Notes under the pieces: model-generated
Told to the model about the DNA's origin: nothing
Databases searched by the model: none
The model's input: the letters and a program-made list of their open reading frames with translations, nothing else
Part shown: one piece after another, positions 3,895 to 12,685 of the stretch
Layout of the letters: every line of letters starts with the position of its first letter
Position numbering within the stretch: the first letter of the stretch is position 1
Translations under genes and position numbers: made by a program
IMG/VR virus record: IMGVR_UViG_3300034101_001713
Location: 1-28,132 of that record
DNA length: 28,132 bases
Direction: 5' to 3' (one strand)
Origin: a virus

Positions 3895-4203
3895 ATGATA
3901 AATTTTCAAGCTCTGGCAAAACTGCCAGAAAAAGAACTAAACAAGATGTCAAAAGCCGAAATTGTTGCTGCAATTCTGCGCGACAGGCATATGTTTGAAT
4001 ACCACGTCAACAGGGGCGATAAATTTCAGGAGCAGATTGCTCAAAATACTGCCAACGAAAGGGCGGCATGTGTTGTGCTTGCCGCATTTATCGGCTTGGA
4101 CATCCCCAAGGACGGGTACAGCAACCAGATAGACACGCGCCAGCTAAACATCCTTGAGCTTGTCGGGCTTGTAACGGCCAAGTGCGTTTCTGTCCGATTA
4201 TAA
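3895..4203 (+). CDS. Hypothetical early protein (102 aa)
   Basis: 102 residues beginning MINFQALAKLPEKELNKMSK. The N-terminal half is charged and helical; a more hydrophobic helix follows at about 60-72 (AACVVLAAFIGLDIP). No catalytic motif was recognised. The gene has the strongest ribosome site of the group (AGGAGG, 8 bases before the ATG) and lies 54 bp after the previous stop, in a stretch with GGCC-rich short repeats. It stops 41 bp before the RHH gene. It is likely co-transcribed with its neighbours from 3570. Confidence 0.65.
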   Translation: MINFQALAKLPEKELNKMSKAEIVAAILRDRHMFEYHVNRGDKFQEQIAQNTANERAACVVLAAFIGLDIPKDGYSNQIDTRQLNILELVGLVTAKCVSVRL

Positions 4204-4244
4204 CAATCAGCGGCCAAGGACGGCTACACACAGAGGATAAGACC

Positions 4245-4544
4245 ATGAACAACGACAAAGCAACCACCGCAACCAGTTTGCGTATGCCAGACGGCCTGTT
4301 GAGACAGCTCACCAAGGCTGCTCACAAGTGTGAGATGAGCCGCACAATGTACATCACAACCGCTCTACAGGCTGCTGTGGCACACGATCTGCCTAGTGCT
4401 GAGTACCGACAGGCATGGGACATGTTAAAAGCCTTCTACGATCAACTGTCGCCAGATGTTGATAGCAATGGCAATCCTGATCGGGATATGTTGCTTGCCA
4501 CTGCTTTAGAAACTGTCCTGCCAGTATTGGGAGCATCACGATGA
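4245..4544 (+). CDS. Ribbon-helix-helix (Arc/CopG-like) DNA-binding protein
   Basis: 99 residues from the ATG at 4245, which has GAGGAT 5-10 bases upstream. An upstream in-frame start at 4182 would add residues that overlap the previous gene and look unrelated. Residues about 8-45 (SLRMPDGLLRQLTKAAHK, then SRTMYITTALQAAV) have the pattern of an RHH fold: a short strand, helix A, a turn and helix B. Such proteins bind operators as dimers. The C-terminal half (AWDMLKAFYDQLSPDVD) is an extra helical region. It could regulate this operon or the nearby late promoter region. Family is inferred from pattern only. Confidence 0.7.
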   Translation: MNNDKATTATSLRMPDGLLRQLTKAAHKCEMSRTMYITTALQAAVAHDLPSAEYRQAWDMLKAFYDQLSPDVDSNGNPDRDMLLATALETVLPVLGASR

Positions 4545-6580: not shown

Positions 6581-7249
6581 TTATTTTGCCCATGATCTGT
6601 CGGTCAATCTTGCAACTGTGCTTTCGTATGTTTCAACTGGTTTTACTGTCGTCGTCTGATTGTCGTTTTGTTCCCACGTTCGCACACACGCTTTCCAGTC
6701 TTTGATCTTGTTCTTGCCTCGCATCCATCCATTGGCTCCATAGTGATTAATAAACCGTTGCGGGTCTACTTGGTTTCCCCTCTCGTTACAGTAAGCCATT
6801 ACCTCGCTGAGTGTGGGAGGCGTGAAACGCTGACTGGTCTTTTCTTTTACTATGGTTAATGGTTTATGGTTATTGGTTATTGGTTTATGGTTAGCATTGC
6901 CTTCGGATTGCGTTCGCAATGCGTTCGCATCGACATTATCCCAGCGTTTACGTGCTGCCTCAGATGCCTTAGCAGACTTGCCCTTGTAGGCCAGTATTTC
7001 GTTGTCTACTCGCGTGTGATGCCATGTGCCATCAATATGCTCATAGAAAAACTCTCGCAATACGGTCGCAATGCACTCGCAATGCGTTCGCATACGGATG
7101 ACTCTGGCAATGCTTTCGATGGTTTCTGGCAGGCCGCATTCATTGAGATAACAGTAGTCCAGCATACGCCGGTAGGCTATGTCCTCAATCGGGTCTAGGT
7201 GCGCTGTGTGACTAGCGTAGTCACCGATATTGAATTGGTAATAGTGCAT
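6581..7249 (-). CDS. DUF1376/YdaU-type replication protein
   Basis: 222 residues. The N-terminus (MHYYQFNIGDYASHTAHLDP, then EDIAYRRMLDYCYLNE) is the DUF1376 domain of phage replication proteins related to YdaU. A variable Asn/Lys-rich linker (about 112-140) leads to a second helical domain (VMAYCNERGNQVDPQRFINH, NGWMRGKNKIKDWKACVRTW), typical of phage replication initiators. The linker DNA consists of 7-bp and 11-bp tandem repeats and another iteron cluster lies in the N-terminal coding part, so the gene may contain its own origin, as lambda O does. The start codon is overlapped by a promoter on the other strand. No primase, helicase or polymerase gene is visible, so host replication enzymes are probably recruited. 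Confidence 0.85.
   Translation of the reverse strand: MHYYQFNIGDYASHTAHLDPIEDIAYRRMLDYCYLNECGLPETIESIARVIRMRTHCECIATVLREFFYEHIDGTWHHTRVDNEILAYKGKSAKASEAARKRWDNVDANALRTQSEGNANHKPITNNHKPLTIVKEKTSQRFTPPTLSEVMAYCNERGNQVDPQRFINHYGANGWMRGKNKIKDWKACVRTWEQNDNQTTTVKPVETYESTVARLTDRSWAK
6851..6892 (+). repeat. Six tandem 7-bp AT-rich repeats (possible unwinding element)
   Basis: Six uninterrupted heptamers on the plus strand: TATGGTT, AATGGTT, TATGGTT, ATTGGTT, ATTGGTT, TATGGTT. It abuts the first 11-bp iteron cluster. A period of 7 is not a codon multiple. AT-rich short tandem repeats beside iterons are typical of replication-origin melting regions. Confidence 0.7.
6892..6935 (+). repeat. 11-bp iteron cluster 1 (four copies)
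   Basis: Copies begin at 6892 (TAGCATTGCCT), 6903 (TCGGATTGCGT), 6914 (TCGCAATGCGT) and 6925 (TCGCATCGACA), exactly 11 bp apart, about one helical turn. The period is not a codon multiple, so the repetition is at DNA level although it lies within the replication gene. Confidence 0.65.
7055..7115 (+). repeat. 11-bp iteron cluster 2 (four copies plus one off-phase)
   Basis: Copies begin at 7055 (TCGCAATACGG), 7066 (TCGCAATGCAC), 7077 (TCGCAATGCGT) and 7088 (TCGCATACGGA), exactly 11 bp apart; a fifth (TGGCAATGCTT) lies at 7105. The copy at 7077 is identical to the one at 6914 in cluster 1. Confidence 0.65.
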
Positions 7250-7258
7250 TGCTATAAT
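7230..7258 (+). promoter_or_regulatory. Promoter for antisense small RNA
   Basis: TTGAAT, a 17-base spacer, then a perfect TATAAT at 7253-7258 on the plus strand, opposite to all genes around it. It overlaps the start codon of the replication gene. Predicted start near 7265. Confidence 0.65.
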
Positions 7259-7264
7259 GCTTCC

Positions 7265-7322
7265 CGTTTTGTGTGTTGAAGCCGTATGAGTCCCGTCAGA
7301 AGGTCATACGGCTTTATTTTTT
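7265..7322 (+). ncRNA. Predicted OOP-like antisense RNA (about 58 nt)
   Basis: A transcript from the promoter at 7230 would run about 58 nt. It ends in a stem AAGCCGTATGA / TCATACGGCTT (7279-7289 with 7304-7314, 11 perfect pairs) followed by TATTTTTT, a textbook intrinsic terminator on the plus strand. No open frame fits inside. It is complementary to the last codons of the RHH gene and to the leader of the replication mRNA. Lambda OOP RNA has the same layout: short, antisense to the 3' end of cII, with its promoter just before O. Expression is inferred, not shown. Confidence 0.6.
7279..7322 (+). terminator. Intrinsic terminator of the antisense RNA
   Basis: 11-bp perfect stem, 14-base loop, then TATTTTTT. 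In the minus direction the stem is followed by CAACACACAAAAC without a T run, so it is a terminator only for plus-strand transcription. On the leftward mRNA the same stem would still fold after the RHH stop codon. Confidence 0.75.
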
Positions 7323-7462
7323 AAAGCCTCTTCCGCAAGACAACTCAGCATATTTGAAAAGCTGCGTTTCTCACTTTCAGCCAGCAGCTTGATCTGTTCA
7401 ATCAAGTTTGCAGGTATTGTCACTGATATCTTCTTTGTGTTCATGTCGTGATTATCGCTCAT
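7304..7462 (-). CDS. Small ribbon-helix-helix regulator
   Basis: 52 residues from the ATG at 7462, four bases after the previous stop; a longer in-frame start at 7510 overlaps the upstream gene and adds unrelated residues. The core KKISVTIPANLIEQIKLLAE followed by KRSFSNMLSCLAEEALKN is a clear RHH domain (strand, helix, SFSNML turn, helix), i.e. a dimeric operator-binding protein of the Arc/CopG type. It lies just upstream of the replication gene, the place of cII in lambda, and its last codons overlap the predicted antisense RNA. It is a candidate for the protein that reads the 18-bp palindromes, though the HTH proteins at 9604 and 11063 are alternatives. Confidence 0.8.
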   Translation of the reverse strand: MSDNHDMNTKKISVTIPANLIEQIKLLAESEKRSFSNMLSCLAEEALKNKAV

Positions 7463-7466
7463 TATG

Positions 7467-7775
7467 CTACCGCCTGCAACGCTGCTCTGGTCTCTCATAA
7501 ACCACCCCATCTATAGTCGTTATGTAAAACACACCCCTGCACTCCATGATCTTCACATGACCGCTGCTGTAGGCTTTCACTGGTTCGCAGGCCGGTAACC
7601 CTTTCCTCGGCAGGTACATGCAGAAGATATCGTACTTGCTGCCCATGTAGTCTGTCAGCGGTGCTGCTGGAAGGTTCTTATCCGGCTTCATGCTGACCAA
7701 GCTGTCCCACGGGTCTTGCTTCTTGCCCTCTTCCTTTTCCAAGGAGGCCGTCCAGTCAATGCTAAAGCTGATCAT
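7467..7775 (-). CDS. Hypothetical early protein (102 aa)
   Basis: 102 residues from the ATG at 7775, which overlaps the previous stop (ATGA) and has GGAG six bases upstream; a GTG four codons earlier is possible. It starts MISFSIDWTASLEKEEGKKQ and has a second half with several aromatic and Cys residues (YDIFCMYLPRKGLPACEPVK, MECRGVFYITTIDGVVYE), suggesting a small beta-rich domain. Not recognised. It is part of the early-left operon driven from the divergent promoter near 8007-8035. Confidence 0.65.
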   Translation of the reverse strand: MISFSIDWTASLEKEEGKKQDPWDSLVSMKPDKNLPAAPLTDYMGSKYDIFCMYLPRKGLPACEPVKAYSSGHVKIMECRGVFYITTIDGVVYERPEQRCRR

Positions 7776-11640: not shown

Positions 11641-12078
11641 ATGAGCAGAGAAGCGTTTGAACATTGGTATGCCGACTACACCGGAGACGCGCATATTTAT
11701 AAATACTGCGACAGCACAGGGCGCTACCAGTCGAATGCTATGGAGTCGGCATGGCGGACTTGGCAAGCATGGCAAGCAGCCCTACAACGCAGCGCGGAGC
11801 CCGTGGTTTTTACCTGTCACGGCAATAATGCGCCAGCATACGGATGTAATAAGCCGGGCGACATGAGCGGTACGTATTACAAAGCCCCGCAGCCGGTGGT
11901 TCCTGACGGCTACAGAGTTGAGCGAGGCTCTGTGACTTATAACGAAATCTTGGTCACTGCTCCCGATGGAGGACAGCAGACATTTTGGCCTGATGACGCG
12001 GCGTACGAATTAATAAAAGCCCTGCTGACAACAGGCAAGGAGAACAAGAATGATAACAATAACACTGGAAAAAATTGA
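11641..12078 (+). CDS. Accessory phage protein with Trp-rich N-terminal module (145 aa)
   Basis: 145 residues from the ATG at 11641. The N-terminal module (EAFEHWYADYTG, then MESAWRTWQAWQAALQ) is a building block seen in many mosaic phage accessory proteins (Ead/Ea22-like), usually followed by a variable segment. The middle has PVVFTCHGNNAPAYGCNKPG, and the end is Asn-rich (KENKNDNNNTGKN). Its last 29 bases overlap the next gene, and its CAGGCAAGGAG end forms the first copy of the junction repeat. Function unknown. Confidence 0.7.
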   Translation: MSREAFEHWYADYTGDAHIYKYCDSTGRYQSNAMESAWRTWQAWQAALQRSAEPVVFTCHGNNAPAYGCNKPGDMSGTYYKAPQPVVPDGYRVERGSVTYNEILVTAPDGGQQTFWPDDAAYELIKALLTTGKENKNDNNNTGKN

Positions 12079-12685
12079 AGCTCACAACCCATGTGAATCA
12101 GGCTGGGAAAAACTGTTGGCGTCAAAAGGCGGTAACAAAGCCGATATGTCTGTCGAGTTTCCGGTCACCGACATACTGGACTCGAATGATCTGGACGACA
12201 CGCTGTGGGTGTTGCGCTGTTTGCCAGAGCATAGCAATCTCTGGCGAAAATACGCCGTCTGGTGCGCCAGACAAGTGCAGCACTTGATGACCGACCGACG
12301 AAGCATTGACGCGCTTGATGTGGCATGGAGACATAGCGAGGGTCTGGCGACAGACGCAGAGTTAGAGTCTGCGAGGGATGCTGCGTGGGATGCTACGTGG
12401 GATGCTACGTGGGATGCTGCGAGGGATACTGCGAGGGCTGCTGCGTGGGATGCTGCGAGAGCTGCTGCGTGGGCTGCTGCGTGGGCTGCTGCGAGGGCTG
12501 CTGCGAGGGATGCTGCGAGGGATGCTACGAGGGCTGCTGCGAGGGATGCTACGAGGGCTGCTGCGGCGGATGCTGTGAGGGTGGCTGTTAGGGATGCTGT
12601 TATGGAGGCGCAAAAGCAAAAACTTGCGCAGATACTGACAGCGGGCGAATGGATTGATGATTCAGCAGGCAAGGGGACGGTATGA
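12050..12685 (+). CDS. Phage protein with tetrapeptide Ala-repeat helix (211 aa)
   Basis: 211 residues. The N-terminal 105 residues form a conserved-looking domain (CESGWEKLLASKG, LDDTLWVLRCLPEH, YAVWCARQVQHLM, RSIDALDVAWRHSEGLAT). I recognise it from memory as a common accessory protein of proteobacterial phages, function unknown. Residues 108-184 are about 19 four-residue units of the type A-(R/W)-(D/A)-A that would form a long amphipathic helix. The C-terminus ends SAGKGTV within the junction repeat. AAGGAG lies seven bases before the ATG. Confidence 0.8.
   Translation: MITITLEKIEAHNPCESGWEKLLASKGGNKADMSVEFPVTDILDSNDLDDTLWVLRCLPEHSNLWRKYAVWCARQVQHLMTDRRSIDALDVAWRHSEGLATDAELESARDAAWDATWDATWDAARDTARAAAWDAARAAAWAAAWAAARAAARDAARDATRAAARDATRAAAADAVRVAVRDAVMEAQKQKLAQILTAGEWIDDSAGKGTV
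12371..12601 (+). repeat. 12-bp tandem minisatellite
   Basis: About 19 imperfect copies of a 12-bp unit near GATGCTGCG(A/T)GG, inside the Ala-repeat gene. Because 12 is a multiple of 3, several other frames on both strands stay open here; these are artefacts. Confidence 0.85.

Follow-up and report, generated by a model that had tools for sequence, protein, structure and literature searches.

Does the junction between a small regulator gene and a replication gene of this virus carry an antisense transcription unit like that of OOP RNA in phage lambda and, if so, which of the two genes would the RNA control? The window, i.e. the whole stretch of DNA analyzed, is IMG/VR record IMGVR_UViG_3300034101_001713, positions 1–28,132 (28,132 nt, virus).

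The predicted antisense unit and its flanking genes

All genes surrounding the junction are on the − strand, opposite to the antisense unit. The downstream gene (6581–7249, −) is a DUF1376 primosomal/replication-initiation gene (Pfam DUF1376, E 1.2e-18; PHROG annotation: primosomal protein); in Vibrio phage 1.003.O a DnaB-like helicase gene follows the DUF1376 gene. The upstream ORF (7304–7510, −) codes for an RHH (CopG/Arc-like) regulator (Pfam RHH_5, E 1e-10; PHROG Arc-like repressor, E 1.8e-5), with a probable gene start near 7462. The intercistronic leader is 54 nt long and contains a weak Shine-Dalgarno-like GGGAAG (7260–7265, −), putatively that of the replication gene.

Elsewhere in the window we saw a second candidate Arc-like RHH gene at 4182–4544 (weak PHROG match, E 5e-4), as well as an Ala/Arg/Trp/Asp-rich ORF at 12050–12685 with a highly repetitive middle (AARDAARDATRAAARDATR...), where several frames are open on both strands.

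On the + strand a −35 box, TTGAAT (7230–7235), lies inside codons of the replication gene, and TATAAT (7253–7258) is situated just upstream of the replication start codon. With TG at 7250–7251 the latter makes an extended −10 box, TGC TATAAT (7250–7258); the 17-nt spacer between TTGAAT and TATAAT contains the complement of the DUF1376 start codon (7247–7249). The first-pass annotation had described a promoter opposite to the local genes and over the replication start codon, a hairpin, a T run and a 19-base overlap with the 3′-end of the RHH gene; read directly, all of its coordinates proved right, and the TG is an addition to them. The predicted terminator hairpin (7279–7314, +) has arms AAGCCGTATGA (7279–7289) and TCATACGGCTT (7304–7314) forming 11 perfect pairs around a 14-nt loop (7290–7303). 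The T run of the intrinsic terminator, TATTTTTT (7315–7322, +), follows directly; it reads on the other strand as Lys/Asn codons of the RHH gene and is kept in relatives as TTTGTTTTTT, TTTATTTTTT or TTTTTTTT. Neither the −10 box nor the 5′ hairpin arm is coding; the last RHH codons run through the 3′ arm.

The antisense RNA is predicted to have ∼57 nt (7266–7322, +), its 5′-end being placed by analogy with lambda OOP (−10 box, 7 nt, G), just past GGGAAG. The RHH gene, whose ORF ends at 7304, would be overlapped by 19 of the 57 nt and the leader by about 38. The segment 7265–7322 folds at −19.7 kcal/mol (z −4.55), with none of 200 shuffles as stable; the 82.6 bits given to it by covariance model R1 are a match by construction. 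Rfam covariance models run against the window gave no family above the gathering cut-off.

A simple promoter scan of the window was at chance level (5 found versus 4.9 expected), and a simple terminator scan missed the antisense hairpin because of its 14-nt loop. Promoter–terminator units this strong, on the other hand, are rare: the window has one, and 400 dinucleotide shuffles had 10 (0.025 per window). Promoter, hairpin and T run share one strand, and there is no neighbouring + strand gene that would need a terminator. We do not count conservation of the −35 box as evidence, since the coding of MHYYQFNI forces TTGAA(C/T) (QFN codons); the box is replaced in loci L084–L088 and L101, which carry another replication gene.

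Persistence in relatives and recurrence with unrelated sequences

Relatives were gathered via the replication protein, the RHH protein and DNA patterns. In L002, 7221–7322 is present without a mismatch, with 88.6% identity in the replication CDS and 71–86% in ORFs upstream of the RHH gene; in L093 the identity is 94.8% for the RNA, 84.7% for the replication CDS and 68% for the RHH gene. The −10 box and the hairpin are present in all close relatives.

The antisense unit outlives exchange of either neighbour gene. Seven loci (L084–L088, L101, L108) have a different replication gene (MPRIRTVKPEFW...), with no BLASTP similarity to the window protein; TATAAT and the hairpin stay, at a similar distance from the new start codon. 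The unit is also kept in L112, whose replication protein is related to this second family (MPRIRTVKPEFW...), in L102, with yet another replication protein, and in L153, over a DUF1376 protein with another N-terminus. In L092 it is the RHH gene that is absent, and the unit is kept. The junction of the replication-gene swap falls within the promoter.

The replication proteins of L085, L092 and L153 have unrelated N-termini and similar C-terminal stretches (e.g. QRDTRDKAAIAADQAFG / QRDTRDRAQRAADEAFG), as if N-terminal domains had been exchanged on a common tail.

Most DUF1376 phages (e.g. L003–L081) are without the antisense unit. Loss of the −10 box or the hairpin with the coding sequence kept, named in the first-pass annotation as a sign against the unit, was seen only in the more distant DUF1376 phages; all closer relatives keep both elements. 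Many of the distant phages that lack the unit hold other RNA elements in the leader.

One such element is the int-alpA RNA (RF02996), found on the gene strand upstream of the DUF1376 ATG (L017:4908–4977, L019:4912–4978, L036:2598–2665). It occurs in many of the L018–L081 leaders, three times at or above the gathering score and more weakly in the others. These leaders likely form a pseudoknot, in which a CUCCC-type stretch pairs with a GGGAG-type stretch near the start codon, the two changing in concert. At none of the loci looked at do int-alpA RNA and the antisense unit occur together. A Betaproteobacteria-1 RNA (RF02932, 103 bits) precedes the DUF1376 gene at L021:955–1071, with similar long hairpins in L020 and L078; in L003, L005 and L010 long near-perfect inverted repeats of other sequence (e.g. 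AAGGTGGCCTCTG...CAGAGGCCACTTT) fill the DUF1376 leader. The junction upstream of DUF1376 genes seems to attract RNA-level control.

Does the layout recur with other sequences? By one procedure we scanned 201 starts from three groups of replication genes and, on the same contigs, 500 other operon starts. Near a start codon, TATAAT, or five of its six letters together with TG, was taken as a strong antisense box; the counts leave out near-duplicates as well as loci that had been picked up by the hairpin pattern. Thirteen of the 14 replication starts with a strong box had a terminator within 110 nt on the same strand, the distance from −10 box to hairpin being 11–23 nt; in the fourteenth (L189/L188) a perfect 9-bp hairpin is followed by a weak T run. 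Where the box was missing, 25 of 135 replication starts had a terminator, near the control rate (75 of 472). Among control starts a strong −10 box was seen in 4 of 472, and box plus terminator in none of the 472. The association of box and terminator gave a Fisher p of 4e-8 when redundancy was cut at 85%, or 1.4e-6 when it was cut at 60%. Of the 14 boxed starts, seven had been chosen by the −10 box alone, the rest by proteins and none by the hairpin; the terminator is therefore an independent finding. No sense-strand terminator was observed in the strong-box set.

Some of the 14 loci are related to each other; at least eight hairpins are without evident relation. A second case of exchange is provided by L123 (DUF1376) and L199 (MPRARN type), which have one hairpin over different replication genes. 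Upstream genes of the analogues code for small proteins (41–107 aa), mostly of RHH or HTH type as judged by eye, with a profile check made for the window RHH only. Three of the 10 DUF1376 phages from INPHARED have the unit, all of them Vibrio phages: 1.003.O (MG592390), Seahorse (MN512538) and vB_VaM_H2 (OP125534); the other seven are without it. For replication proteins of the M(A/P)RARNIK family a prediction had been set down beforehand; it led to only one new locus, L277, with TATAAT, hairpin and T run, which agrees with the prediction, a single locus being too few to count as replication.

What L123 and L199/L200 share is the antisense hairpin (CCCGCTAGACCTGCAAGTCT...ATGCGGG) and the small upstream gene (MKKLIDFK...); the replication genes are unrelated. 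Several candidates were rejected: in L117 and L122 the −10/start pattern was a chance match in unrelated sequence, with no hairpin; four Clostridia loci from a scan of genome contigs are probably due to chance; L096, L098–L100, L103–L107, L109, L111, L113 and L115, from the hairpin-pattern scan, were chance matches or ordinary terminators.

Probable target and mode of action

Promoter, terminator, strand, conservation, covariation, recurrence and a geometry like that of lambda OOP and P22 sar can be read in the sequence, and quite probably they mark the gene of a short cis-antisense RNA that limits synthesis of the replication protein by pairing with its leader, as a copy-number signal. We infer the following course of events. 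RNA polymerase with the ordinary sigma factor would start transcription at ∼7266 from the extended −10 promoter over the replication start codon, and would be stopped by the hairpin and T run where the RHH gene ends. The transcript would match the intercistronic leader of the RHH–replication mRNA with full complementarity; its 14-nt loop would meet the complementary hairpin loop of the mRNA and seed the pairing (kissing). The duplex would hinder ribosome loading beside the Shine-Dalgarno site, as for sar, and would allow RNase III to cut the mRNA at the junction, as for OOP. The presumed sign of the effect is negative: the replication protein, and to a lesser extent the RHH regulator, would be held down by a signal that rises with phage copy number, closing the putative feedback.

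Given the division of the predicted RNA between leader and RHH gene described above, the leader is the likelier target, and with it the replication protein. The RNA lies over the leader because the upstream gene ends 44–73 nt before the replication ATG, in relatives and in unrelated analogues alike (110 nt in L092). Blocking of ribosomes by the RNA is not certain, since the RNA is predicted to begin ∼16 nt before the ATG and hardly extends to the Shine-Dalgarno site. We also considered that the sense loop might sequester this site; inspected by eye, such sequestration is not conserved.

It is unlikely that the RNA works truly in the OOP mode, acting mainly on the 3′-end of the RHH transcript so as to lower the regulator, with the replication gene as a bystander. 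The 19-nt overlap with the RHH gene and the small, mostly regulator-like upstream genes of the analogues would suit such action, and lambda OOP does act on cII through RNase III (PMC5869508 and its references 19 and 20). In the unrelated analogues, however, the distance between upstream gene and ATG leaves the RNA in the leader with slight overlap, and L092 keeps the unit without an RHH gene.

Improbable, too, is the idea that the act of transcription is what matters: the start-codon promoter would block or collide with the polymerase of the operon, or would open or close an origin, and the hairpin would just shorten the transcript. The promoter on the start codon is indeed the most constant feature, and lambda oop-ori plasmids silence replication initiation, a purely antisense cause being doubted by the authors (PMC3349717). 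Yet the whole transcribed stretch, loop included, is conserved in close relatives, which would be needless beyond any terminator.

The stem itself bears on which strand is read. Stem cells were paired in 96.2% of cases over ten family members and in 95.8% over nine rows with L153; two adjacent pairs vary, as U-A/U-G/C-G and A-U/C-G/U-A. The covariation score was matched by none of 500 shuffles (ten rows) and by one of 500 (nine rows with L153). The compensatory changes are modest evidence: they come from nine or ten related sequences, in which one or two pairs have changed in both arms, and the final codons of the RHH gene lie in the 3′ arm, so that part of the hairpin conservation has another cause. 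G-U pairs occur in the stem in 6 of 10 rows, where an RNA of the gene strand would have A-C mismatches; the antisense strand folds better than the gene strand in 9 of 10 rows; the T run is one-sided. These features say that the + strand RNA is the one under selection.

That the hairpin is a leader structure of the sense mRNA (for processing or translation control), next to an accidental promoter, is thus very improbable. Many DUF1376 leaders do carry sense-strand structures at this place (int-alpA RF02996, Betaproteobacteria-1 RF02932), but the T run is found on the antisense side only and the G-U pairs are valid only there, while terminators co-occur with the −10 box, none is seen on the sense strand in the strong-box set, and in the relatives −10 box and hairpin stay together through cassette swaps. 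It is hardly to be expected, finally, that the RNA acts chiefly in trans, on mRNAs of the phage or its host, via the loop CCCGUCAGAAGG and the U tail: the core of this conserved loop is kept in L092 and L112 though stem and neighbours differ, but L153 has the same stem with another loop.

Comparison with lambda OOP, P22 sar and ArrA

OOP has so far been treated as a lysis–lysogeny device of lambdoid phages. Our search of the literature, largely of papers open without subscription, found OOP RNAs only in lambdoid phages, and earlier descriptions of units like the present one are possible.

Lambda OOP (pO–tO, 77 nt) and the oop of P22/BTP1 are, as is the unit described here, antisense at the junction of a small regulator gene and a replication-initiator gene. 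By the same reading of the public record, lambda pO has TGtCATAAT on the O start codon, i.e. an extended −10 overlapping the initiator start codon as here, and a 4/6 −35 box at 17 nt; P22 oop and sar are alike. In lambda, too, the intrinsic terminator overlaps the regulator gene at its 3′-end. The joins of module swaps fall inside the promoter in our set, as does that of the lambda/P22 hybrid pO promoter (PMC3349717). Differences are seen in the genes: the upstream gene is of CII type in lambda and RHH_5/Arc-like here, and the replication gene here is of DUF1376 or MPRxR type, unlike that of lambda. They are also seen in the overlap, as only ∼19 of 57 nt are within the regulator gene here versus 52–55 of 77 nt of OOP within cII (52 according to PMC5869508; 55 in our reading of the public record).

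The geometry here is nearer to that of P22 sar. The gene upstream of sar, arc, is also an RHH gene; the RNA (70 nt, 68 of them in the arc–ant leader) lies over the intercistronic leader, with its 3′-end on the arc stop codon, and its promoter is within the start of the downstream gene, as here. The downstream gene is the antirepressor ant in P22 and a DUF1376 primosomal protein gene here. Sar hinders translation (PMC12197685). Covariance model R1, which represents the family described here, had no match in lambda or P22, and sar model RF00262 had none in the window, P22 being its only match (97.8 bits). The unit is thus OOP- and sar-like by layout and, as far as tested, homologous to neither.

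No integrase (tyrosine or serine) and no S24 repressor were found in 12 records carrying the unit; these include the complete 45-kb Seahorse genome, most of the others being fragments where such absence is weak evidence. A lysogeny role is therefore not indicated, and the lysis–lysogeny role of OOP is unlikely to carry over here. Since, moreover, the RNA is mainly over the leader, damping of replication-protein synthesis fits better; a gene-dosage brake on the initiator is our best guess. What the first-pass annotation had proposed, an independently promoted OOP-like counter-transcript at a regulator/replication junction, is strongly supported by the comparison, with two amendments: most of the RNA is complementary to the leader, and a lysis–lysogeny role is not to be expected.

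We suggest tentatively that a short antisense RNA placed where a small DNA-binding gene meets the initiator gene may be a general, repeatedly invented copy-number brake of phages, used also without lysogeny genes, whose box and terminator travel with the regulator as a cassette. If so, lambda OOP would be one instance of a wider design that is not specific to lysogeny. The layout over DUF1376 and MPRxR genes, in phages apparently without integrases, points to a shared control of replication proteins. A simple rule for annotation of metagenomic phages would be to look for an antisense TATAAT a few bases from the start codon of the initiator gene and for a terminator no more than 110 nt away, and the three sequenced Vibrio phages (1.003.O, Seahorse and vB_VaM_H2) carry the unit in testable form. 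Such control can be likened to the antisense copy control of plasmids. It can also be likened, by layout, to ArrA of Bacillus subtilis: this RNA, too, runs antisense to an initiator leader, that of dnaA, and lowers dnaA mRNA and protein (PMC12112137); unlike the unit described here it is chromosomal and inhibited by DnaA.
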